IMG/VR virus record: IMGVR_UViG_3300003886_000021 | Location: 1-37,039 of that record | Source of the DNA: a virus | Direction: 5' to 3' (one strand) | Length of the DNA stretch: 37,039 nt | In this document: in pieces, positions 1,220-36,322 of the stretch | Numbering within the stretch: position 1 is the first letter of the stretch | How the letters are laid out: every line of letters starts with the position of its first letter | Translations under genes and position numbers: made by a program | Notes under the pieces: generated by a model | What the model was told of the DNA's origin: nothing | The model's database searches: none | The model's input: the letters and a program-made list of their open reading frames with translations, nothing else

Positions 1220-1708
1220 ATGAGGTGCATTCATCTAGGCAGACGCGGGCAGTGTACTCTTCCCAAGGTGGATAACAGTGATTACTGTTCCAAACATTCT
1301 AACGAGAAAGACCGGATGACACGTTACCGTATTCAGGATTCTTCCCTTAGAGAACGCATGACAAGACATGCAGAGGGTGGGGTTCTAGCTACAGTGGTCG
1401 ACGAAGTCATACTGTTGCGTTCTTTAATCGAAGAACGGCTCGAATTGGCCCAGTCCAAGGCCGAGAAGGAGGCCGCTTTCAGCGTTGTGACCCCAATGGT
1501 CGCACAAGTCAACAAACTTGTGGAAAATTTGGCCAAAATGAGGAAAAGTAACAGTGAGGTTCTCGACAAGGACTCTATTTCCCGTCTAGGTGACGCTATT
1601 GTCACTATTCTCATTGACGAACTGAACGATATTCACGACCGGGACACAATTATTGACAAAGTGGCGGAGCGGATCGCTTCTACGATTGTTGAGGCCCAGA
1701 ATGCCTAA
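1220..1708 (+). CDS. Probable terminase small subunit with N-terminal zinc-binding motif
   Basis: A 162-residue protein, the first gene after the repeat-rich block. The N-terminus (residues 3-26) has Cys3, Cys12, Cys23 and His26 spaced like the short zinc motif seen at the start of some phage small terminases. Residues 60-160 are helical, with heptad-like leucines and valines, as in the oligomerisation core of such proteins. In phages TerS binds the packaging site and hands DNA to TerL. Here TerL lies almost 4 kb downstream, which weakens the call. The start ATG has GAGGAG four bases upstream. A DNA-binding regulator is the main alternative. The function is inferred from position and composition. 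Confidence 0.5.
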   Translation: MRCIHLGRRGQCTLPKVDNSDYCSKHSNEKDRMTRYRIQDSSLRERMTRHAEGGVLATVVDEVILLRSLIEERLELAQSKAEKEAAFSVVTPMVAQVNKLVENLAKMRKSNSEVLDKDSISRLGDAIVTILIDELNDIHDRDTIIDKVAERIASTIVEAQNA

Positions 1709-1910: not shown

Positions 1911-2705
1911 ATGAAAAAATGGATATCTGATCTGGTGAAGAGCCTAACTGTAGTTGGTTTGCTTTCTATGCCAGTAGGAGTTGCTCTTTATGACTCTGGG
2001 GATGAAGCCATTTACACACAGACAACGACCATCCTGGGTCAAGAGCGTGCCGAAGTCGGAGAGCTAGTTCGGTTAGAGGTATCTGGTGAAGATGTTGAGT
2101 GGACCGTACTGCCAGAGGTTGCCGACTTTCAAGTCTTCGGAGAGAACAGTCAACGGATGGTGATTTCTTTTCGCACACCTGGAGTTTACACTGTAATAGC
2201 AGCAGTAATCACTCCCGAGATCACAGTGAATGTCGAAACCCGACGGATTGAAGTCTACACCAACACACCTGCACCCACACCGACGATCGCCCCTACACCC
2301 AAACCAGAACCGGAAGTGTCAATCGTAATTAAGAACTACGATAACGATTCGTCTCGGGCCGTAACACTTTGGGCAGAGATGGATTCTTTGCCACCTCGCT
2401 TAGCCAAGGATATAGCAACTCAATTAGATTTGGTTGCAGCCGAAATTGACAACGGCGAGATTGTTACGCCCGAAGGCGTGATTGCACGCACCTCCAACCT
2501 CTTAGGCACAATGAACCTCACTCCGTACGCTCCTTTTCTCCAAAAGTTGCAGCAGCTTATGACGGACGAGGCCGACGCCGGGAACCTTTCTACTCAAGAA
2601 GCACACTCCCTTCTCTGGAAGTCGGTCGCTTACGGCCTAAAGTCCTACGCCGCCCAACCTAAAGGATTGAACTTCTCTAAAGCCGTTATGATGAGGTCCA
2701 ACTAA
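1911..2705 (+). CDS. Exported protein with Ig-like domain and proline-rich linker
   Basis: A 264-residue protein with GGAG six bases before the ATG. Residues 1-26 have a basic start (MKKW) and a hydrophobic run, consistent with a signal peptide or membrane anchor. Residues about 45-116 are beta-rich and resemble Ig/PKD-type folds, including the pattern PGVYTVIA. A linker rich in Thr-Pro (about 117-137) leads to a helical C-terminal region (150-264). The stop overlaps the next start (TAATG), so it is probably translated together with the protease that follows. It may be a cell-envelope accessory or binding factor; the exact role is unknown. Confidence 0.7.
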   Translation: MKKWISDLVKSLTVVGLLSMPVGVALYDSGDEAIYTQTTTILGQERAEVGELVRLEVSGEDVEWTVLPEVADFQVFGENSQRMVISFRTPGVYTVIAAVITPEITVNVETRRIEVYTNTPAPTPTIAPTPKPEPEVSIVIKNYDNDSSRAVTLWAEMDSLPPRLAKDIATQLDLVAAEIDNGEIVTPEGVIARTSNLLGTMNLTPYAPFLQKLQQLMTDEADAGNLSTQEAHSLLWKSVAYGLKSYAAQPKGLNFSKAVMMRSN

Positions 2706-3703
2706 TGTGGAAAGCCTTCGCTATCGCCACTATGCTGGCTGCACTCATTTATTCGACTTCGGAAACCCCGAAGAACGCAAGAGTACGTGACTACGGATGG
2801 TACGCCCCTTCCTGGAGAAGCATAGAGGACCCGCACGAACTGCTGGCAATTCCGAATGTATGGAAACAAGACGGTGCCAATAAAACCCGCCTCCTTTACA
2901 AAGACTATGAGACGGTTCACGGTTACGCCTACAACGCCAGGAACCAGGGTGCCGCACCAAGCTGTGTAGGGCAGGCTACAGCCGCCGCTGTGGACTTCCT
3001 AGCCGCTACCCAGATTGCCACTGGTAAGCGTGAGAGAGCCCCTCCTGGGGGTGCCAGTGCGGCTGTGATATACGGGTGGAGTCGAATTCAGATAGGTGAA
3101 ATCAACATCTCCAAGTTTGGGGGTGGGAGCCACTGCCGATGGGCAGCAGCAGCAATTCAGAAGTATGGCACGGTACCGAATAGGAACTACCCGTCTCTGG
3201 GTGTTGACCTTTCGCAGGAGAGTGCCAAAAGGTGTTTGAAGTATGGGGTGAGGGGCCCACCGGAGGGCTTTGAAAAGATAGGTATCCTCCATCCTGTCAT
3301 TGAATACATAAAGGTTGAAACCTACGAGGACGTGCGAGACGCGGTCTTTAACGGATGTCCAGTCATTATAGGTTCCAGTATTGGATTCGGAGAACGATCG
3401 GGTGCCATGCGGGACCCCGACGGATTCTTAAACAGGCCGTCCAGTTTCTTTGGATTCCGTCAGAGTAAATGGAATCACGCTATGGTCATTATAGCCGTAT
3501 GCGATGAAGGACGCAAGGGGTGCCTAGTTTTGAACTCCTGGGGACCACGGTGGATCAACGGGCCCACAAGATTCGGATCGGAGCCCGAAGGCTCGTTCTG
3601 GGTCAGTGTAGAGAACATCGAAGATATAGTGTCACAGGGTGACTCTTATGCCCTCCACGGGTTTATTGGCTACCCCAATTATAAACTGTGGAGTGGAAAA
3701 TGA
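2705..3703 (+). CDS. Membrane-anchored or secreted papain-like (C1 family) cysteine protease
   Basis: A 332-residue protein with the hallmarks of family C1 peptidases: oxyanion Gln81 in NQG, nucleophile Cys87 in PSCVGQA, catalytic His258 in WNHAM and Asn277 in LNSWG, followed by a papain-like GSFWVS strand near residue 297. Residues 1-17 form a short hydrophobic segment, so the enzyme is probably exported or anchored. The C1 fold and residues are clear; substrate and timing are not. It could help lysis, process exported phage proteins or act on host envelope proteins. It sits between an Ig-like exported protein and a thioredoxin, with stop-start overlaps on both sides, suggesting co-translation. 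Confidence 0.88.
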   Translation: MWKAFAIATMLAALIYSTSETPKNARVRDYGWYAPSWRSIEDPHELLAIPNVWKQDGANKTRLLYKDYETVHGYAYNARNQGAAPSCVGQATAAAVDFLAATQIATGKRERAPPGGASAAVIYGWSRIQIGEINISKFGGGSHCRWAAAAIQKYGTVPNRNYPSLGVDLSQESAKRCLKYGVRGPPEGFEKIGILHPVIEYIKVETYEDVRDAVFNGCPVIIGSSIGFGERSGAMRDPDGFLNRPSSFFGFRQSKWNHAMVIIAVCDEGRKGCLVLNSWGPRWINGPTRFGSEPEGSFWVSVENIEDIVSQGDSYALHGFIGYPNYKLWSGK

Positions 3704-4197
3704 AGAAATCGCATTTAGCTCTTGGGGGTTGTTTTGTTTCGTTTGCTCTTACGATTATGGTTCACTTCTCGCAGCCAGCTTTCTTTCAGGGAGAAGTGCA
3801 AGAAGTTCGGCCTGATTATCGGCAGATTTTTAGCACGTTCTTCGCGTCCGAGCAAGAACAAAAAGAAGAGAAGGCGTCTACGCTTTTGGTCGTGAGTAAT
3901 GCCACTTGGTGTGCTCCGTGCAAAAAGCTGCACCCCATCCTGGAGAAGCTACAAGAGCAAGGTTACGACGTAACCATAGTAACCCCAAAGAAGTATGCCA
4001 AACGACACAAGAGTAAAAAAGTCCCGATTGATAAGTTGCCCACCCTTTTGTTTGAGAACGATAAAGGGAAGATCATTTTGAAGGCCGTTGGTTTCAAAAC
4101 CGAATCCTACATTAAGAAAAGGTTGAAGAAGAATGAAAAGAATACTAAGACTTTTCGTGTTTTCCCTTCTCGTAACAATGATCGCCCCAAGCTGTGA
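3700..4197 (+). CDS. Membrane-anchored thioredoxin-like protein
   Basis: A 165-residue protein. The start is the ATG at 3700, which overlaps the protease stop as ATGA and has GGAG five bases upstream; an upstream in-frame GTG at 3688 is less likely. Residues 8-24 are a hydrophobic anchor, then a charged spacer, then a thioredoxin fold with active site WCAPC (Cys71, Cys74) and the cis-proline loop KLPTLLF (Pro114). The C-terminus is Lys-rich. The family reduces or exchanges disulfides; topology predicts the active site outside the cytoplasm. Direct coupling to the cysteine protease suggests it may keep Cys87 reduced there, which is my inference. Confidence 0.85.
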   Translation: MKKSHLALGGCFVSFALTIMVHFSQPAFFQGEVQEVRPDYRQIFSTFFASEQEQKEEKASTLLVVSNATWCAPCKKLHPILEKLQEQGYDVTIVTPKKYAKRHKSKKVPIDKLPTLLFENDKGKIILKAVGFKTESYIKKRLKKNEKNTKTFRVFPSRNNDRPKL

Positions 4198-4330
4198 AGC
4201 AGGGTTGTTCCAACGCAGGGCCGTTAGGACGTTCTGGTATCCCGGAGTGTTCTTGCAACTCAAGGGACGTGACTTTACACCAATGGTTTACCGTGGAGAC
4301 TGGGTCCCCACTTCGGAGCTAAGACGATGA
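4133..4330 (+). CDS. Small exported protein overlapping the thioredoxin gene
   Basis: A 65-residue protein whose first 65 bases lie inside the 3' end of the thioredoxin gene in another frame. It begins MKRILRLF and continues into a hydrophobic stretch ending near PSCEAG, a typical signal peptide. The Cys might be a lipoprotein site, although the residues before it fit the lipobox poorly. The mature part is about 40 residues, basic and aromatic. The next gene overlaps its stop (ATGA). The layout recalls nested Rz/Rz1 spanin genes, but the sequence lacks the usual Rz1 proline richness, so I do not call it a spanin. Confidence 0.6.
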   Translation: MKRILRLFVFSLLVTMIAPSCEAGLFQRRAVRTFWYPGVFLQLKGRDFTPMVYRGDWVPTSELRR

Positions 4331-4662: not shown

Positions 4663-4935
4663 ATGATACTCGACCTCTATCTGGCGATGGCAACAGCCAC
4701 CTTAACAGTGTGCATCAGCACAGCAGAGATAGGTCACTTCCTAAGAAAGAGATTTAATCCGGCAGGGGTGCTCAATTGTGTGTTCTGCACAAGCATTTGG
4801 GTAGCAGCCGTTTTAACGTCCTTCACGGGGTTCGATTCATTTTGGCTAAGGGTGCCTGCCATTGTAGCAGTATCCAACGTGGCCATCCTTTTAATTCACC
4901 TGGGTATGTCCATTGTAGGAGACGAGAATGATTAA
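4663..4935 (+). CDS. Small multi-pass membrane protein with CxxC
   Basis: A 90-residue protein with about three hydrophobic segments (residues 5-22, 40-56 and 65-84). The motif LNCVFCTSIW at the start of the second segment resembles the C..C.S.W signature of small DUF1360-like membrane proteins. Its end overlaps the next start by 8 bases. It could belong to a lysis or envelope-modifying set with the neighbouring membrane genes. The start at 4663 has no strong ribosome binding site; an internal Met at residue 9 is possible. Confidence 0.6.
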   Translation: MILDLYLAMATATLTVCISTAEIGHFLRKRFNPAGVLNCVFCTSIWVAAVLTSFTGFDSFWLRVPAIVAVSNVAILLIHLGMSIVGDEND

Positions 4936-5236: not shown

Positions 5237-5449
5237 ATGGCTAAAATTGCTCTATTGATTACCAAGGCTCTACGGAGTCGGACCCTAATCGTCAACTACG
5301 CTGTGCTGATTGCTGGCACCCTAACCCTGTGGACGGGTAGCGACGTGATCACGGACAACCCCGAAGTGGCGGCTGTCATGGGCTCCATCCTGGCCGGCGT
5401 GAACATTGTGCTCCGTCTGCTTACCACGAAGCCTCTGGAAGATAAGTAA
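5237..5449 (+). CDS. Small two-helix membrane protein, holin candidate
   Basis: A 70-residue protein with AGGAG seven bases before the ATG. It has two hydrophobic segments (about residues 19-33 and 43-60), a short loop with ITDNPEV and a polar C-terminus (TTKPLEDK). Size and topology fit class II holins, and similar small proteins ending in LRLLTTKP are common beside phage structural genes. Holins form pores that release or trigger lysis enzymes. No muramidase-type endolysin is visible nearby, so the holin label stays tentative. The following 116 bases (5450-5565) contain no gene; a short CCTGT/ACAGG pairing is the only structure I saw. Confidence 0.55.
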   Translation: MAKIALLITKALRSRTLIVNYAVLIAGTLTLWTGSDVITDNPEVAAVMGSILAGVNIVLRLLTTKPLEDK

Positions 5450-5565: not shown

Positions 5566-7233
5566 ATGCTAGACTTCTTTCAAGATCGAATAGCTAAAGC
5601 TCTAGTCGACCGCACCTTAGACAAATGTGCTCGTTGGTGCCAACACCGCATCTGGTTGCCTAAGCCCTACGAGGGTTACATGGGTTTCGACCGGTTCCCT
5701 TGGCTGAGGGAGTTGTTGAACATAGACGAAGGCCTAGTTACGATCCGAAAGGGGTCGCAGATGGGACTCAGTGTGGCCGCGATGGTCAAGAGTCTACATC
5801 TAGTATGTGAGAAAAAAGAAGACTTGTTGTATGTTTTGCCGACTGCATCATTAGTAGGTGACTTCTCCAAGGGTCGTCTCGAACCGATTATCCAACTTAG
5901 CCCAGAGCTTTCCGATATCTGGAAGGATGCTAATGTAGGATTTAGGCAAACTGACTCTGGAACATCCATGTATATCCGTGGGTCGAAAAGCCAAGCAGGT
6001 CTAGTAAGTATTCCTCTTGGTCACGCTGTCATAGATGAGTACGATCGCTGCGATATAAGTACAATGGCGTTGGTATTCAAGCGGTTTTCTGCCCGAGAAC
6101 AATTCTACTTAATGAGTCTCTCAACCCCCACGCTCCCTGAGTTTGGGATAGATGAGATTTACCGACAAGGAACGCAAGAACAATTTCGCTTTCCGTGCCC
6201 GAGTTGCGGTAAGAAGATCGAGTTACTGTGGCCGGAGTCGGTCGTCATTTGCGGCGACCATCACCAAGATGACGACTGTGAAAAGAGTCATTTTGTTTGC
6301 ACGGAATGTGGGGTTACCCTTCCGCATGAAGAAAAAGCCGAGTGGTTGAAAAAGTCATATTGGGAAGCTACCCTTAATGTGTCAGGCCATCGGAGTTTTC
6401 ACATCAATCAACTGTATTCTCCAGGGATGAACGCCCCCAAATTAGTGCGGGAACACTTTAAGGGCGAGATTTCGGAAGTATCAAGGATAGAGTTTTACAA
6501 CCAAGCACTCGGCCTACCCTATGTAATGGACGGAGCTAGGTTGACCCCGGACCTCATCGCACGATGTGTCCGGGGGCACTCGAAGGAAGACAAGAAGCCT
6601 ACAACGGGCAACCGACTTATCTGTATGGGCATCGATACCGGGGCATTCCTGGATATCGTGATCTCAGAATTCTTGTTCGACGCTGACCCAAGAAACGAGC
6701 CCTCTCTTAATAGTGTGGAGAGAGTGTTGTGGGAAGGGCGAATGGCGGGGAATGATTGGAATGGTCTCGACCTGCTAATGCAGGGCTGGCAGGTTCAGCA
6801 CGCCTGTATTGATAGTTCCCCAGAAACAGAACTTGCCAAACAGTTTGCTAGAAGGTATCACGGGTTTGTATCCCTGGTACAATACCGTCAAGGGACTATA
6901 GGTCACCAAATCAAATCCGTAGAGGACGAGAACGGGACCCCGACTCTAACAGTAGACAGAACTACTTTCATGGACATGGCCCTGGGACGGATCACAAAAG
7001 AAAGAATTGAATTCCCTTCGGACGTTTCCTCAGTGTTCAAAGAGCATTTGCAGTCCCCCGTTAGAACCTATGAGATCAATGACTCTGACGGCAGGCCACG
7101 AGCCGTTTACCAAAACAACAAAGATGATCACGGGGCCCACGCCCTAACCTTTTGTGAAATAGCACTTCATCGGGCTTATCACAGGCAAACCGGCAACGCA
7201 ATCAAAGTCGGCGAAAGTTTCTATACATTCTAA
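5566..7233 (+). CDS. terL: Terminase large subunit, lambda GpA-like
   Basis: A 555-residue packaging motor. The N-terminal ATPase has the displaced-lysine Walker A of GpA enzymes (KGSQMGLS, residues 62-69) and Walker B AVIDEYD (Asp157, Glu158). A zinc ribbon follows (Cys211, Cys214, Cys245, Cys248), as in many GpA relatives. The C-terminal nuclease shows acidic residues in MGIDTG (Asp357), ACIDSS (Asp416) and KDDHGAHA (Asp521). The enzyme cuts concatemeric DNA and pumps it through the portal. Length and domain order are normal. It starts the head module; the start has AAAGG seven bases upstream. Confidence 0.93.
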   Translation: MLDFFQDRIAKALVDRTLDKCARWCQHRIWLPKPYEGYMGFDRFPWLRELLNIDEGLVTIRKGSQMGLSVAAMVKSLHLVCEKKEDLLYVLPTASLVGDFSKGRLEPIIQLSPELSDIWKDANVGFRQTDSGTSMYIRGSKSQAGLVSIPLGHAVIDEYDRCDISTMALVFKRFSAREQFYLMSLSTPTLPEFGIDEIYRQGTQEQFRFPCPSCGKKIELLWPESVVICGDHHQDDDCEKSHFVCTECGVTLPHEEKAEWLKKSYWEATLNVSGHRSFHINQLYSPGMNAPKLVREHFKGEISEVSRIEFYNQALGLPYVMDGARLTPDLIARCVRGHSKEDKKPTTGNRLICMGIDTGAFLDIVISEFLFDADPRNEPSLNSVERVLWEGRMAGNDWNGLDLLMQGWQVQHACIDSSPETELAKQFARRYHGFVSLVQYRQGTIGHQIKSVEDENGTPTLTVDRTTFMDMALGRITKERIEFPSDVSSVFKEHLQSPVRTYEINDSDGRPRAVYQNNKDDHGAHALTFCEIALHRAYHRQTGNAIKVGESFYTF

Positions 7234-19448: not shown

Positions 19449-20576
19449 ATGGCAAGACTCCAATTACGAGATACTAACATCTTTCTTCAAGATGGGCTAT
19501 CGGGGTCGGCTCAGGTCGACGAGGGTAACTCGTCTCTGGCACAGGTCCCGGTGGTGACTACCACGCAAGGGGCGATGGCCACAGACGAAGTGCAGACGGT
19601 TGTCCAGTATGGGAGAGCACCTACTGGCGGTACCTACACCTTATGGATTAGCGATGGTACTACGTCCTTTACTACTGCGGACATTGCATTCAACGCTGCT
19701 GCTGCGGTGATTGAGACCGCAATCGACGTAGCCGCTACTGCTGCAACATACCCGGCGTTTACCAATGGTGACATTACTGTCGCGGAAGTGGGCGGCGTAG
19801 CGGGTGTATCCGACGGCGGCGGAGTCACATTGACTTACGACGGGGCCTCAGTCACGAATACAAATTTCGAGACTACCATTATTAACGGTGCGTCCCTTAC
19901 TGGGACTACGATTACCGGGGGCTCCACACTGGGCCTGCAAATGTTAGTCCTGAACTCCGATGTAACGAACCGAGTTCCAGTTGGGGGGAGATTCACAATC
20001 GCCACTGAAACCGGGACACCGATTCATACCATTACGTCCCGATATCAGAACCCCATGGACGGCACTCTGACGATTGCATTTACCCCTGCCATCGCTTCCA
20101 CGGTGGCCGAGAGCGATGCAGTTGTGTTCATGCCACAGCGTCTCTCAATTCGAATTGGTGACGGAGATGTCACTTGGACTGAGAGCCGGGAAATGATCTA
20201 TGACCTCGACCGGGACCTGCTTGACAGTGTCCGAGAGGGGCAAGAGCAGCCTGTAGAAATCGAACTTAACTTCGTATTCGAAGAGGTTACCGCTACAAGC
20301 GGACAACCTGTTTCTCCAGTAGACGCTTTGAAGAGAATTGGAGAGGCCACAGAGTGGGTTTCCTCTTCGGCAGATTTGTGTCAACCTTATGCCGTTGACC
20401 TGTTCGTCATTCACTGTGTGCCCTGCGGCACAGACCAGGATCAAGACTTCTTGTTCCAAGATTTCCGTTGGGAGAGTTTAGATTACTCCATTCAAGACGC
20501 TGCTATTGCCGTGTCGGGACGTTGCAATGTTGCTAACATCACAACGACACGAGGCAACTTTAACGAATGTAGTTAA
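19449..20576 (+). CDS. Major tail (tube) protein, long paralogue with inserted domain
   Basis: A 375-residue protein with GGAG six bases before the ATG. Residues 1-20 and about 160-375 match the protein encoded at 20666; the last about 148 residues differ at only eight positions. The extra section (about residues 30-155) is beta-rich, with TYTLWISDGTTSFTTADIAF and GVTLTYDGASV, as in Ig-like or decoration domains added to tail tubes. It probably builds a decorated tube or caps it. Nucleotide third positions differ widely from the copy, so this is an old duplication under protein-level constraint. Confidence 0.72.
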   Translation: MARLQLRDTNIFLQDGLSGSAQVDEGNSSLAQVPVVTTTQGAMATDEVQTVVQYGRAPTGGTYTLWISDGTTSFTTADIAFNAAAAVIETAIDVAATAATYPAFTNGDITVAEVGGVAGVSDGGGVTLTYDGASVTNTNFETTIINGASLTGTTITGGSTLGLQMLVLNSDVTNRVPVGGRFTIATETGTPIHTITSRYQNPMDGTLTIAFTPAIASTVAESDAVVFMPQRLSIRIGDGDVTWTESREMIYDLDRDLLDSVREGQEQPVEIELNFVFEEVTATSGQPVSPVDALKRIGEATEWVSSSADLCQPYAVDLFVIHCVPCGTDQDQDFLFQDFRWESLDYSIQDAAIAVSGRCNVANITTTRGNFNECS

Positions 20577-20665: not shown

Positions 20666-21412
20666 ATGGCTCGAATCCAATTGCGAGACACAAACATCTT
20701 TCTTCAAGATGGCCTATCTGGTGCCGCCCTGATCAATCAGGTCACGGCAGGCGGGGAAACCACCTTGACGATCGACGCTGTTGTCTTGAATTCGGATGTG
20801 ATCGACCGCGTACCAGTTGGGGCGAGGTTTACTATCTCTACTGAGACAGGAACCCCTATCCATACGGTAACGGCTCGCACTCCGATGAGTGGCAATCCGA
20901 CCACGGACATTACGTTCACTCCTGCTTTAGGTGCTGGTACTACTGACAACGACGCTATCGTATTCTTGCCGCAACGGCTTGCAATTCGTATTGGCGACGG
21001 TGACGTAACCTGGACCGAAAGTCGTGAGATGATCTATGATCTTGATCGTGATTTGCTGGATAGTGTACGAGAAGGTCAAGAACAGCCTGTCGAAGTCGAA
21101 CTCAACTTTGTGTTCGAGGAGGTTACCGCTTCAAGTGGGCAACCCGTTTCGCCAGTAGACGCACTAAAAAGAATTGGTGAAGCTACAGAGTGGGTTTCGT
21201 CTTCTTCGGATTTGTGCCAGCCTTATGCTGTTGACTTGTTCGTGATTCATTGTGTTCCTTGCGGTACAGACCAGGATCAAGATTTCTTGTTCCAGGACTT
21301 CCGTTGGGAAAGTTTAGATTACTCAATCCAGGACGCAGCCATTGCTGTTTCTGGTCGATGTAATGTAGCTAATATCCCCACAAGTCGTGGTGATTTCAAT
21401 GAGTGCAGTTAA
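20666..21412 (+). CDS. Major tail (tube) protein, short paralogue
   Basis: A 248-residue protein, the core version without the inserted domain of the gene at 19449. It shares RIGDGDVTWTESREMIYDLD and the ending NECS. Codons favour CGT, GAT and GGT, like the coat gene, suggesting stronger expression and making it the likely main tube subunit. The 89-base gap before it contains two short GC pairings (AGCC/GGCT near 20581 and TTGGC/GCCAA near 20604) and a T-rich stretch. Followed by a strong terminator. Confidence 0.75.
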   Translation: MARIQLRDTNIFLQDGLSGAALINQVTAGGETTLTIDAVVLNSDVIDRVPVGARFTISTETGTPIHTVTARTPMSGNPTTDITFTPALGAGTTDNDAIVFLPQRLAIRIGDGDVTWTESREMIYDLDRDLLDSVREGQEQPVEVELNFVFEEVTASSGQPVSPVDALKRIGEATEWVSSSSDLCQPYAVDLFVIHCVPCGTDQDQDFLFQDFRWESLDYSIQDAAIAVSGRCNVANIPTSRGDFNECS

Positions 21413-26641: not shown

Positions 26642-26692
26642 TCCACCCTCTCGGCGGGGGAGATGGCATCAAACCCGCTCTTTGGAATAACT

Positions 26693-28249
26693 ATGGCTAT
26701 TATCTTCTTTGAAGGTTTTGAAACACTGGGCCCGGACGTGGGTATAGCTAACAATACGGCTATGCGTTTAAGGCTACAGAAACGTATGGGTGTGTTTAAT
26801 AACCTGGGGGATATGCAGACCAGCAACCAATTCTTAGCAATCGGGGACGAGGGTGTAGGGTTCGCTTGGCACATGGGCACGGAACCACAGTCATTTGCGA
26901 ACACCATTTCATTCTTACTACCGACACAACTTGCCGTTGAAACTAACACGGCCACGCCACTAATAACTATGGGGTGCTTGGTCCACATACCTAGTAGCCC
27001 TAGAACATTCCCTCTATTCACTATGACGCACACCGGGGCCAATGAGCCCAATCTGTTAGTGGATAACTCCACCGACTTGATTTTCAGAGTGGGGACTACA
27101 GTAGTCGCCACTGCTCTAGGAGTCTTGGATGCAGGGGAGTACAACTATGTTGAGTTCCAAATTGTGGTGGATGGCACTGAGGGACAAATCGGAACCTCTA
27201 CAATAAATGAGGATATCACGGACACATTCATCATCGATCCCGGAGCCGCGGACATAGTGGACATCGACATATCCGCCCCGGCTTTCTATGAGCCCCTGTG
27301 GGATAGCACGGTCACCTACACTATCACTAATACAGTAAGGTGGCAGGGTTCCGAATATGAAGCCTTGAACCCTGGAGGGGCCAATTTGGGGCAAGAGCCC
27401 GGAGTTGAAATGGGTGGGTTCTGGAACTTAGTAGGAGTGGAACAAAATAACACCATTACCTCTGTGCCCAATGGGTCTACGTTTCACTTCTTGAATGACC
27501 CCAACCGAACAATTTATACAGTAACGAGCACAGACACGACCACGAACATTGTGTTCACTCCTGGACTCACTGCGGCAAGTTACCTTCCTGCTAACACCGA
27601 ACAGGTAGTGTTTGGCACGCGTGCTCAATTCGAGGCTAGAGTAGCGAGTCAGAGAGTGATGGGCGAACTGGGTTTACTCACAATGGACGCCGGGGTTCGT
27701 GAAACCCTCCAGGAAATAGAGTATGGTGCAACCTCCTCTGACACCGGAACCAACTTTGTGGCTTACGATGATCTTTATGTCACCACCCCGGATGGAACCG
27801 GTAATGACGGGTTTTTGAATGCCGTGAGGGTGATCAACCTGCCACCTACCACGGCCACCCAGGAACAATGGGAACAAAGTGAGGTAGCTGCCAACAATGC
27901 CGATCTGGTAAGAGAGCATGGGGTGAACGAAACTACATTCCTTAGATCGAATGATAACACCTATGTGGACATCATGGAACATGGGCAGGTAATCTCCGAG
28001 GGGTCGGCACTCGCAGTAAAGATAGAAACAGAAGTGGAGAATCTAACCGCAGGGAATCCTCAGGTTCGAGCAAGGTTACACTTAGGTGGAAGCAATGTGG
28101 AAACCAATTCTCCCGTGATCGTGTCCGGGGATACCATCGTCACCCAGGCATTCATCCCCCAGCAACCGGGTGGTGGGGATTGGGACGTAGCTTCATTAAA
28201 CGCCTCACTTATACAAATTCAAATGTTCTCTGGGTTCGGGGTATTATAA
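26693..28249 (+). CDS. Minor tail protein with CBM5/12-like module, paralogue A
   Basis: A 518-residue protein. I start at MAIIFFEGFET because the next gene begins with the almost identical MAIFWFEGFET; an ATG 30 bases upstream (26663) has a ribosome site only two bases away. Residues about 196-250 (EPLWDSTVTYTITNTVRWQG, then EYEAL and FWNLVG) follow the W-x-Y-x-V-x-G-x-Y-x-A pattern of CBM5/12 carbohydrate-binding modules. The rest is beta-rich, with FVAYDDLYVTTPDGTG before a fibronectin-like end. Probably a tail-tip or side-fibre component that binds surface sugars. Its stop overlaps the next start. Confidence 0.65.
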   Translation: MAIIFFEGFETLGPDVGIANNTAMRLRLQKRMGVFNNLGDMQTSNQFLAIGDEGVGFAWHMGTEPQSFANTISFLLPTQLAVETNTATPLITMGCLVHIPSSPRTFPLFTMTHTGANEPNLLVDNSTDLIFRVGTTVVATALGVLDAGEYNYVEFQIVVDGTEGQIGTSTINEDITDTFIIDPGAADIVDIDISAPAFYEPLWDSTVTYTITNTVRWQGSEYEALNPGGANLGQEPGVEMGGFWNLVGVEQNNTITSVPNGSTFHFLNDPNRTIYTVTSTDTTTNIVFTPGLTAASYLPANTEQVVFGTRAQFEARVASQRVMGELGLLTMDAGVRETLQEIEYGATSSDTGTNFVAYDDLYVTTPDGTGNDGFLNAVRVINLPPTTATQEQWEQSEVAANNADLVREHGVNETTFLRSNDNTYVDIMEHGQVISEGSALAVKIETEVENLTAGNPQVRARLHLGGSNVETNSPVIVSGDTIVTQAFIPQQPGGGDWDVASLNASLIQIQMFSGFGVL

Positions 28250-29817
28250 TGGCCATATTTTGGTTTGAAGGTTTTGAAACTTGTGGCACCCTGGTAGGTG
28301 CTGCCAATGCTACTGCCACCAGAGCAGAAATTGCGAAGAGAGTGACCACCATGTTTAGTGGGGGACCTTTTTTGATCGACGATCCCGATATAGACGGGTT
28401 CGCTGTAAATTTCGGGGGCAACTTTCAATCTGCATTTGACCTAACTTTCGACGGCTCAACATTGGGAAATGAACGATTGGGTCACGACGGGTCCATCATC
28501 ACAGTGGGTGCAAATATACATTTTCCAAGCCCGGCCCGGAATTTTTCCCTTATCCGTATGTATAGCCAGTCCAATGCTGGTAATGACAATTTTTTAGACT
28601 TGGGAATGAGGGCAGACGGGGGGCTTGCTATTGCAAGAGGTGCATCCGTTCGTATGGAAACAGGTCCTTTAACCCCTTCGATTACAGGCGAGTGGGCCTA
28701 TGTAGAGTTCTCTTATCGAAACTCCGGCATGGCCGGTACTTATGCCACCGCTAAAGTGGCTGCTATTCCCGCAGACGGGGCTACCATTTTAGAAATCGAC
28801 ACTCTCGAAGAACGAAGGCCCTTTTGGAGGGCAGGTACTAGCTATTCGACAGGCACGGAACGTTCTTGGATGGGTAGAGTCTATGAGATGGTGGCGGGTC
28901 CGAATAGTACAGGCGATATCCCAGATGAAAACCCCCTCATTTGGGAAGATGTAGGATCGATGAATGACCCGTCGTTCTTAGAAGTATTCGATTCTTCATT
29001 TCAGCCGCATTTCCATATTTTACAGGACCCGGAACGTAGAATGAGGAATACCCTAGGGATTGATAACAACCCTGCCGATCAAATTCGCCTTAGCGGCAAC
29101 AGTTATGATATTGTTGGAGGGGACTACCAGCCCGCTATAGGCGATGATATTGTGGTGGGGGATTCTAGCTTTGTTGAAGTTAGACTCAACGGAGTTCGAA
29201 TAATGGTTGCCCACCTACGGCCCAATGGGTCTAGATTCAACGACTTGGGCAGTGCCTCCGGCGATGTAACAGGGCACACATTAGATCGGACTACATTCAT
29301 TCAGACTTTTGGCATTACAGGAACCGGAGAGAATTTTGTGGGGTTCGATGATGTCTATATTAGTTCTTCGAGTCAAATGTGGAACCCCGACACCCGAGGG
29401 GTTTCTTTAATAAGAAGTTTGCCCCCTACCTCCGACATTGTATCCGACTGGACTGCTGTGCCCGGTCCCGATAACTTTTCTGGGGTGGATGAAAACGGAA
29501 ATGACGCAGCCGACTATGTAGACGCCGCCAGCAACACTCTAGTTGACAGATACGGTTGCACAGATTTCACAGAATTTAGTGACGGACAAATCCATGCTGT
29601 TCGAGTAGAGGCAGAAGTGATCAATACCACAATGGGTTCTCCCGTAATTGAAGTCAGTGTCGGACCCTCTGGGGAAATCTCCGAAACATTCATAGTGGAT
29701 AACATAGTAGCCAGCGAAGTAGTACAAGTTGACACAGAAATAAAACCCGGTGGAGGCTTTTGGGGCTTCCCCGACATAGATGATCTACAAGTAGGCATCG
29801 AATCCTCTGGCCTTTAA
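28249..29817 (+). CDS. Minor tail protein with CBM5/12-like module, paralogue B
   Basis: A 522-residue protein with the same architecture as its upstream neighbour: the FEGFET start, a CBM5/12-like segment at about residues 189-237 (RRPFWRAGTSYSTGTERSW, then GRVYEMVAG and IWEDVG), FVGFDDVYISSSS and a Gly-rich end. Apart from these motifs the two proteins have diverged strongly. The start ATG overlaps the previous stop as TAATG; the long upstream extension in this frame is not needed. The pair probably arose by tandem duplication followed by diversification of binding. Confidence 0.65.
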   Translation: MAIFWFEGFETCGTLVGAANATATRAEIAKRVTTMFSGGPFLIDDPDIDGFAVNFGGNFQSAFDLTFDGSTLGNERLGHDGSIITVGANIHFPSPARNFSLIRMYSQSNAGNDNFLDLGMRADGGLAIARGASVRMETGPLTPSITGEWAYVEFSYRNSGMAGTYATAKVAAIPADGATILEIDTLEERRPFWRAGTSYSTGTERSWMGRVYEMVAGPNSTGDIPDENPLIWEDVGSMNDPSFLEVFDSSFQPHFHILQDPERRMRNTLGIDNNPADQIRLSGNSYDIVGGDYQPAIGDDIVVGDSSFVEVRLNGVRIMVAHLRPNGSRFNDLGSASGDVTGHTLDRTTFIQTFGITGTGENFVGFDDVYISSSSQMWNPDTRGVSLIRSLPPTSDIVSDWTAVPGPDNFSGVDENGNDAADYVDAASNTLVDRYGCTDFTEFSDGQIHAVRVEAEVINTTMGSPVIEVSVGPSGEISETFIVDNIVASEVVQVDTEIKPGGGFWGFPDIDDLQVGIESSGL

Positions 29818-35166: not shown

Positions 35167-35762
35167 GCGTCGGCCCCGAACATCCCCAGCGGACAGGCCT
35201 CGGTGGCCATACGGAGTTTATTGGCAAGACCCTTAGAGTCTTGGTTGACGGAGCAACCACAGACTTTACAAGAATGTGTCTTCTTATCGTACTTCTTGCA
35301 CCCGCTGCAATAGGTCTCAAAGATATACTTCACCTGTTCATCGGTTCTTTTGGGGCGACCTGCTTTAATCCAATCCCGAACGGCCCCGTAGTAATTGACG
35401 AGCATATTGGTCTTCGTAGCCGTCGTATTGCGAACATCCTCGTCACACCTATTACAGATTTCTGGGGTAACAGGAAGTTCAGTAACAGTACAGTCACATC
35501 CGCCTTCGAGGCAGTGGCGATAAACACAATCCTTGAACCCCTCCGGGGTGCTAAGGATGGGGAGTTGGATCATGGTGCCTGTAGGCTGGCGGATGGGTTC
35601 AGGCGTACAGGGCTTCTTCGGAGTGATGAACTTACGCACTGGACAGTCGTGGCAAATGTCCGCATCCACATTTGCTCTATAGTGGTCCGAAGAAGGCTCA
35701 ATACACCTTAACCTATCCTCGCCTTTATAGATTTCTGATTGTCTCTTTAAGCAGTCTTTCAT
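35163..35762 (-). CDS. Cys-rich zinc-ribbon protein (DUF6171-like end)
   Basis: A 199-residue protein. Start at the ATG at 35762, which overlaps the preceding stop as ATGA; the 11-residue upstream extension reads back into the ClpP-like gene. It has many Cys: DICHDCPVRK, VYRHCLEGGCDC and EICNRCDEDV in the first part, and a C-terminal CSGCKKYDKKTHSCKVCGC followed by TEACPLGMF. The last piece matches the C..C / C..CGC / CP pattern of small phage zinc domains (DUF6171-like). It may bind nucleic acid or a tail component. It closes the minus-strand group. Confidence 0.7.
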   Translation of the reverse strand: MKDCLKRQSEIYKGEDRLRCIEPSSDHYRANVDADICHDCPVRKFITPKKPCTPEPIRQPTGTMIQLPILSTPEGFKDCVYRHCLEGGCDCTVTELPVTPEICNRCDEDVRNTTATKTNMLVNYYGAVRDWIKAGRPKRTDEQVKYIFETYCSGCKKYDKKTHSCKVCGCSVNQDSKGLANKLRMATEACPLGMFGADA

Positions 35763-36322
35763 TTCTCCACCCAGATGGCATCTGCCACTCCCCACGTTAC
35801 CGCTTCCTGGGCCGAGAAGTAAAAATCACTAGCTTTAGCACTCTTACTACGCCAGAAACGTAAAGGCATATTAGACCTTTCGGCGATCAGAGCATTCCAC
35901 TTGTCGTCCATATAGGAAGTTTCCTTTACCTCCGACATCATCGCGGACACCTTGCCAGACATCTCGTCGCTGGAAGCGTGGGTCATTAACCTACAGTTTT
36001 CGGACACCCACCTATAGCCGGGCTCGCCTACCGCCAACAGCAATGGTGCCGCCGAGAAGCAACTCCCAAATGCGAACGTATGCACGGGAGCTTTGATGGT
36101 GTTGATAATATCCACGATGGCAAACGTGTGATAGACTGAACCTCCAGGTGAGCAAATGAATAGTTCAATTGGGGTTTCCGAGTCGATCGCGTCCAAGAAG
36201 TAAAGTGCCTTTACCACATCGAAGCTAGACTGGTCTTCAATATCCGATAGAAAGATTCTACGGCTCTTGAGATCGATCCCACGCTCGAAGTAAGTGTCGG
36301 CCCATGCTCTATCAATATTCAT
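35759..36322 (-). CDS. ClpP-family serine protease
   Basis: A 187-residue protein with GGAG five bases before the ATG. The ClpP fold is clear: LFICSPGGSVYHTFAIVD carries the GG substrate loop, the nucleophile is Ser90 in GSCFSAAPLLLAVG, His115 lies in RLMTHAS and Asp166 in ASDFYFSAQEAVTWGVAD. All three triad residues are present. Phage ClpP-like enzymes often mature capsids, but here it lies far from the coat gene, on the opposite strand and in a small operon of its own. It could process head proteins in trans, or host or phage targets in infection. It lacks an obvious ATPase partner here. Confidence 0.88.
   Translation of the reverse strand: MNIDRAWADTYFERGIDLKSRRIFLSDIEDQSSFDVVKALYFLDAIDSETPIELFICSPGGSVYHTFAIVDIINTIKAPVHTFAFGSCFSAAPLLLAVGEPGYRWVSENCRLMTHASSDEMSGKVSAMMSEVKETSYMDDKWNALIAERSNMPLRFWRSKSAKASDFYFSAQEAVTWGVADAIWVEK

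Follow-up and report, generated by a model that had tools for sequence, protein, structure and literature searches.

An exported papain-like protease and a neighboring thioredoxin form a conserved, putative proteolysis module in a clade of uncultured tailed phages

Within a linear stretch of viral DNA of 37,039 bases (hereafter the window, which is an entire IMG/VR virus record and a genome fragment), we found a module in which an exported papain-like (C1) cysteine protease lies between an Ig-like protein and a thioredoxin. This phage module is real and conserved, and it is previously undescribed in the literature searched, where we found no description of a phage-encoded pairing of an exported cysteine peptidase with a thioredoxin. 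From the genes and their order, the fold and conserved catalytic residues of the protease, the export signals and the co-inheritance of the parts, we infer chemistry and purpose; the reading that we favor, and consider reasonably probable, is of an exported proteolysis module with a dedicated reducing thioredoxin, carried by a clade of uncultured tailed phages.

The window carries mainly structural genes, including those for the terminase, portal, major capsid and tape measure proteins of a tailed phage. A preliminary description of this DNA had reported three genes that overlap as TAATG and ATGA. They lie head to tail on the + strand, and its coordinates, overlaps and motifs were all correct: the Ig-like ORF stops with TAA at 2703-2705 where the protease ATG begins at 2705, and the thioredoxin ATG at 3700 overlaps the protease stop TGA at 3701-3703. 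The span first assigned to the module (1911-4330) extends to the end of an additional small exported ORF (Table 1). The conserved gene that bounds this slot on its other side (1220..1708) is small-terminase-like by position only.

Table 1. Genes of the module and its surroundings in the window
Feature	Position	Strand	Evidence
Conserved gene at the slot's other border, Zn-binding N-terminus	1220..1708	+	Homologues adjoin TerL in module-less relatives
Exported Ig/PKD-like protein	1911..2705	+	ORF; low-confidence model; homologues upstream of C1 protease in relatives
Exported C1 (papain-like) cysteine protease	2705..3703	+	Model and fold search; invariant catalytic residues; Sec-type N-terminus
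Thioredoxin, membrane-anchored or signal-bearing, WCAPC, cis-Pro114	3700..4197	+	Pfam Thioredoxin; neighbor in all exported-protease relatives
Small exported protein, 65 aa	4133..4330	+	Homologue in L027 and L039 only
DUF1360 membrane protein, CVFCTSIW	4663..4935	+	PF07098 E 3e-4; alignments, scans
Small protein, C-terminal transmembrane segment	4928..5227	+	Syntenic in close relatives
Small membrane protein with two TM segments; only its appearance is holin-like	5237..5449	+	Position relative to module varies among relatives
Large terminase subunit (anchor gene for finding relatives)	5566..7233	+	phrog_675 E 2e-77

Elsewhere in the window, the non-coding left end (405-659) contains a palindromic 29-nt element, TGGGGAGTT..AACTCCCCATG, in three copies, together with long inverted arms. 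Tandem duplicate proteins, probably of the tail, are encoded at 19449-20576 and 20666-21412 (79% identity across 234 residues), and two adjacent large structural proteins at 26663-28249 and 28180-29817 look paralogous and have a common IxxFxEGFETxG start. At the extreme right (35759-36322), a ClpP-type head maturation protease is encoded on the opposite strand, distant from the portal and capsid genes.

Searched alone, the window protease gave weak evidence, with a Pfam match to Peptidase_C1_2 below the cut-off (E 0.32) and a PDB match by phmmer at E 0.15, and the protease of one relative (L083) scored 17.8 bits against a PF00112 cut-off of 20.7. Structure prediction with AlphaFold from an 18-member alignment (mean pLDDT 82.6), a check that the preliminary description had proposed, recovered a papain fold. 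The best match to the model was xylellain (Foldseek E 1e-11; Z 22.2, 3.0 A across 240 residues), cathepsins and papain matched at Z of 18 or more, which places the model within the papain fold, and C1 peptidases from uncultured phages were matched as well (BFVD). Gln81, Cys87, His258 and Asn277, which the preliminary description had noted as intact, are invariant in the alignment of 18 diverse phage C1 proteins, and also in 17 of 17 exported lineages with full-length sequence. Predicted fold and residue invariance together support assigning the window protein to peptidase family C1, with proteolytic activity predicted. Across the 17 full-length exported-lineage proteases Cys87 is the sole conserved cysteine, unlike papain itself, which has conserved disulfides. 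One phage C1 protease (L011, 5716-7888) is split by an intein-like insertion right behind its NSWG motif.

With the window protease as query, tblastn gave no detectable relative among annotated phages, single-sequence scans of viral contigs by protease and by terminase did not recover relatives, and genome-contig scans returned a single remote match, in a Clostridia MAG. The family became accessible when DNA was scanned with the degenerate cysteine-box pattern QGxxx[ST]CVGQA; of the 33 viral stretches that this yielded, three were close homologues. Relatives were gathered by scans with capsid and terminase alignments followed by profile searches of all DNA obtained. A maximum-likelihood tree of the terminase (53 rows) separated a clade of 32 with all module phages (support 100/99) from another clade, of 21, lacking the exported module. 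Eighteen lineages of the larger clade carry the exported C1 protease, and the core order of Ig-like protein, protease and thioredoxin is located between the gene at 1220 and the terminase in relatives. Rare adjacency in related phages, which the preliminary description had set as a refutation of the pairing, was not what we observed: in 18/18 of these lineages a thioredoxin accompanies the exported C1 protease. The lineages share ancestry, so these are not 18 independent events. The other members of the larger clade comprise four lineages with a C39-like peptidase and thioredoxin, three in which the thioredoxin is visible and the remainder cut off or unrecognised, six whose locus is lost at a contig end, and one (L043) whose visible 3.4 kb shows an array of tRNA genes plus a trypsin-like gene. 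Neither exported protease nor thioredoxin was found in the nine members of the sister clade with more than 2.5 kb visible.

Exported trypsin-like serine proteases (Pfam Trypsin_2) lie immediately upstream of the terminase in L038 (2715-3431) and L043 (2723-3412). L043 (59-2719, 14 genes) and L044 (2462-3311, 6 genes) carry tRNA arrays between the terminase and the place where the module would sit.

Every case lies within one clade, as would be expected if the gene block were kept by descent with the thioredoxin in an unrelated role such as general disulfide exchange or oxidative stress. We consider this unlikely, in part since small flanking genes shift position among relatives while the module core keeps its place, and in part since the thioredoxin is kept when the protease is exchanged. 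The slot of L084, L093, L099/L100 and L127 holds a signal-bearing peptidase, with a lipobox in most, that has the motif GEGSCV, replaced by GEGACV in L099/L100, together with GGxHM and LLDNN in those cases with an intact frame. This peptidase had no Pfam match; its C39-like label rests on the order of Cys, His and Asn, a short profile alignment and a weak best PDB match to the C39-like 3erv (E 0.48). The thioredoxin persists at these loci, mostly as a lipoprotein, and because L092, which has a C1 protease, nests among the C39-type lineages in the terminase tree, at least two peptidase changes occurred without thioredoxin loss. This swap is our best argument that the thioredoxin would serve the exported cysteine peptidase as such.

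Beside signal-less C1 proteases on about 21 other phage contigs no thioredoxin was found nearby in the DNA examined, which likewise argues against mere inheritance as a block. In the sister clade, L107/L108 encode an exported Ig-like protein and a signal-less C1 protease whose ribosome-binding site is clear, but a thioredoxin is missing. Thioredoxin presence thus seems to track protease export, in a contrast that phylogeny partly confounds.

Exported, C-terminally anchored proteins that are thioredoxin-fold-like and without CxxC occur beside the C39-like peptidase in L093 (7531-8319), L084 (916-1641) and L127 (4182-4934). Permuted papain-like proteins (C92-like, E 0.12) are encoded upstream of this peptidase in L093 (6262-7023), L100 (1336-1995) and L127 (2733-3407), and are possibly lysis enzymes.

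The protease of the window's clade has a Sec-type hydrophobic N-terminus, and in seven relatives (L079, L081, L083, L088, L089, L095 and L097) it opens with a twin-arginine motif (TAT_signal profiles). In most of these Tat-type relatives the thioredoxin and the protease end alike (DYRIW, DYDIW or DYKLW; shorter DYDL and DYTL). Of 11,934 ORFs, 16 have the strict C-terminal ending [DNE]Yx[ILVFM][WFYL]; 14 of these encode module proteases or thioredoxins (including some from near-identical contigs), and the remaining two are near-identical ORFs on the reverse strand. A motif common to both proteins speaks further against a thioredoxin carried along in an unrelated role. In the window the motif is missing from the thioredoxin, which we count against the favored reading, and in the protease, whose C-terminus reads GYPNYKLWSGK, it lies a few residues short of the end. 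The L081 record (L151) also encodes, at 45769-46668, an exported phage M28 peptidase with PPDYIIW near its C-terminus, resembling the module tail motif, and because of this the motif may be a sorting signal and not a pair-specific dock.

The identity of the thioredoxin is secure (PF00085 E 9e-11, with CxxC and cis-Pro present); in four close lineages about 16 positions are invariant at ~30% identity, including C71, C74 and P114. Its N-terminus has two lysines and then a hydrophobic segment, so that by the positive-inside rule the domain should lie outside the cytoplasm. The preliminary description had recognized an anchored WCAPC thioredoxin and a hydrophobic N-terminal segment on the protease, and these assignments hold; both proteins have such a segment. 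Unlike the window and most relatives, one sub-clade (L079/L082/L083) has thioredoxins without a signal, for which passenger export with the Tat-borne protease is one possibility and action within the cytoplasm another. Because the CxxC motifs vary across relatives (CAPC, CSWC, CPPC, CIHC) and the Trp ahead of them is not conserved, the redox direction of the thioredoxin is not fixed by sequence. The signal-less thioredoxins, the variable motifs and the shared ancestry of the lineages also count against the favored reading. The window thioredoxin is a single domain behind its anchor with no DsbC/DsbG match or dimerisation domain, and since that domain is missing we do not place it in the DsbG family.

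In the mechanism that we propose, the module genes in the interval ahead of the large terminase gene would provide a C1 protease that is exported (by Sec in the window's clade, by Tat in distant relatives) and acts on host envelope proteins, together with a thioredoxin that would keep the protease's single conserved Cys reduced and that in most cases has a membrane or lipid anchor placing it outside the cytoplasm. The thioredoxin would draw electrons from a host membrane thiol relay and might also open disulfides of target proteins, enabling cleavage; the timing would be late, possibly at lysis. Reduction of the catalytic Cys by the thioredoxin is plausible because this is the only conserved Cys in the protease family. 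DsbG protects single cysteines in the periplasm, according to a passage of PMC4597128 that cites Depuydt 2009, and phage cysteine endolysins are activated by reductant, partly perhaps via envelope thiol changes (PMC8586454). Thiol transfer, the envelope-protein substrate, the late timing and the planctomycete-like host considered below are the parts of this account that we infer.

The Ig-like protein consists of an N-terminal hydrophobic segment, a beta-sandwich, a Pro-rich linker and a C-terminal helical bundle; its low-confidence model has seven strands followed by five to six helices and gave weak PKD-like matches. A homologue lies upstream of the C1 protease in all relatives with readable upstream DNA, L075 excepted, and the gene is missing from C39-type loci. 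Since it is present at C1-type loci only, it goes with the C1 protease and not with the thioredoxin, and it is probably a partner of that protease, whether inhibitor, chaperone or targeting subunit. We considered a chagasin-type (I42) inhibitor and rejected it, as there was no Pfam match and the NPTTG and RPW loop motifs are absent. We likewise considered that the DUF1360 protein might relay electrons across the membrane to the thioredoxin, as its CxxC is kept throughout the window's Sec-type clade, but the gene was not detected in Tat-type or C39-type relatives by alignments and scans; because it is missing there, we do not regard it as a general part of the module.

The preliminary description had also suggested a role in lysis, noting that no classical endolysin was visible, an observation that is uninformative in a linear fragment holding mainly structural genes. 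Module proteins matched no peptidoglycan-cleaving (endolysin) family in Pfam and PHROG, six endolysin families were not found in the records of eight relatives (largest 177,656 bases), and CHAP was not found in those of 18. We do not take these absences as proof of a lysis role, since the records are fragments and Amidase_2 and Phage_lysozyme were also not found in the module-less sister clade. The originally proposed coupling of protease and thioredoxin is strongly supported, by its constancy in the exported lineages, its retention through the swap and its absence beside signal-less C1 proteases, whereas the proposed lysis role is a possibility.

Those same absences fit a different emphasis, in which the thioredoxin's main client would be the disulfide cross-links of a host protein wall, so that a wall loosened by reduction would then be digested by the protease, leading to lysis of hosts with protein-rich walls. 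The planctomycete SDS-resistant envelope has been described as almost wholly protein, Pro- and Cys-rich and disulfide-stabilised (PMC3035269; PMC2754498; PMC8567305, on YTV proteins). The L081 record has at its end a gene that matches the planctomycete surface signal PF07595 at E 1e-4, below the cut-off, and fits the published surface motif RRLxxExLExRxLLA; the LEPR-XLL profile NF012209 gave nothing useful, and the protein matches other phyla through its repeats. This one sub-threshold match in one distant relative is a thin hint of a planctomycete-like host. We regard the wall as main client as doubtful, given this host lead, the lack of two of these endolysin families in the module-less sister clade as well, and the finding that, among the visible sister lineages, none carries a thioredoxin in the absence of a peptidase. 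Doubtful to a similar or slightly greater degree is the wider idea of a lysis or exit system for disulfide-linked protein walls, pairing an exported thiol protease with a dedicated reductase and, in many members, a shared C-terminal docking or sorting motif; if true, it would be the protein-wall counterpart of the endolysins that act on peptidoglycan. A further reading, exclusion of superinfecting phages or remodelling of the host surface, in which the protease would trim a receptor or surface protein early in infection with support from the thioredoxin, would suit exported, anchored proteins without an identified peptidoglycan-cleaving domain, but the module is grouped with late packaging genes and not with early genes, and we think this very unlikely.

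Under the favored reading of a protease with a dedicated reducing thioredoxin, a pair that stays together while the peptidase family changes would offer a compact example from nature of a thiol enzyme run in an oxidising compartment, and if the hosts are planctomycetes, how phages breach a disulfide-held protein wall becomes testable. DsbG/DsbC with YbiS-type enzymes likewise join a thioredoxin-fold protein outside the cytoplasm to a client with one catalytic cysteine; the pair described here differs in being phage-encoded, dedicated by gene neighborhood and built on a single thioredoxin domain where DsbG is dimeric, and its thiol transfer is putative. Phage cysteine endolysins (CHAP, Amidase_5; Skl, Pal) have the same papain-type topology, thiol chemistry and activation by reductant, but they cleave peptidoglycan, and the C1-type protease of the window matches neither family. 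In the staphopain-staphostatin and SpeB-Spi systems a secreted papain-like protease is co-encoded with a small partner, whose phage analogue is perhaps the Ig-like protein; to our knowledge these operons are without a thioredoxin. Xylellain of Xylella fastidiosa (PDB 3ois; clan CA family C1) shares the papain fold over the whole catalytic domain and the Q/C/H/N residues, whereas the window protease, ~19% identical to it, is phage-encoded, carries an N-terminal export segment and has a thioredoxin as its neighbor.
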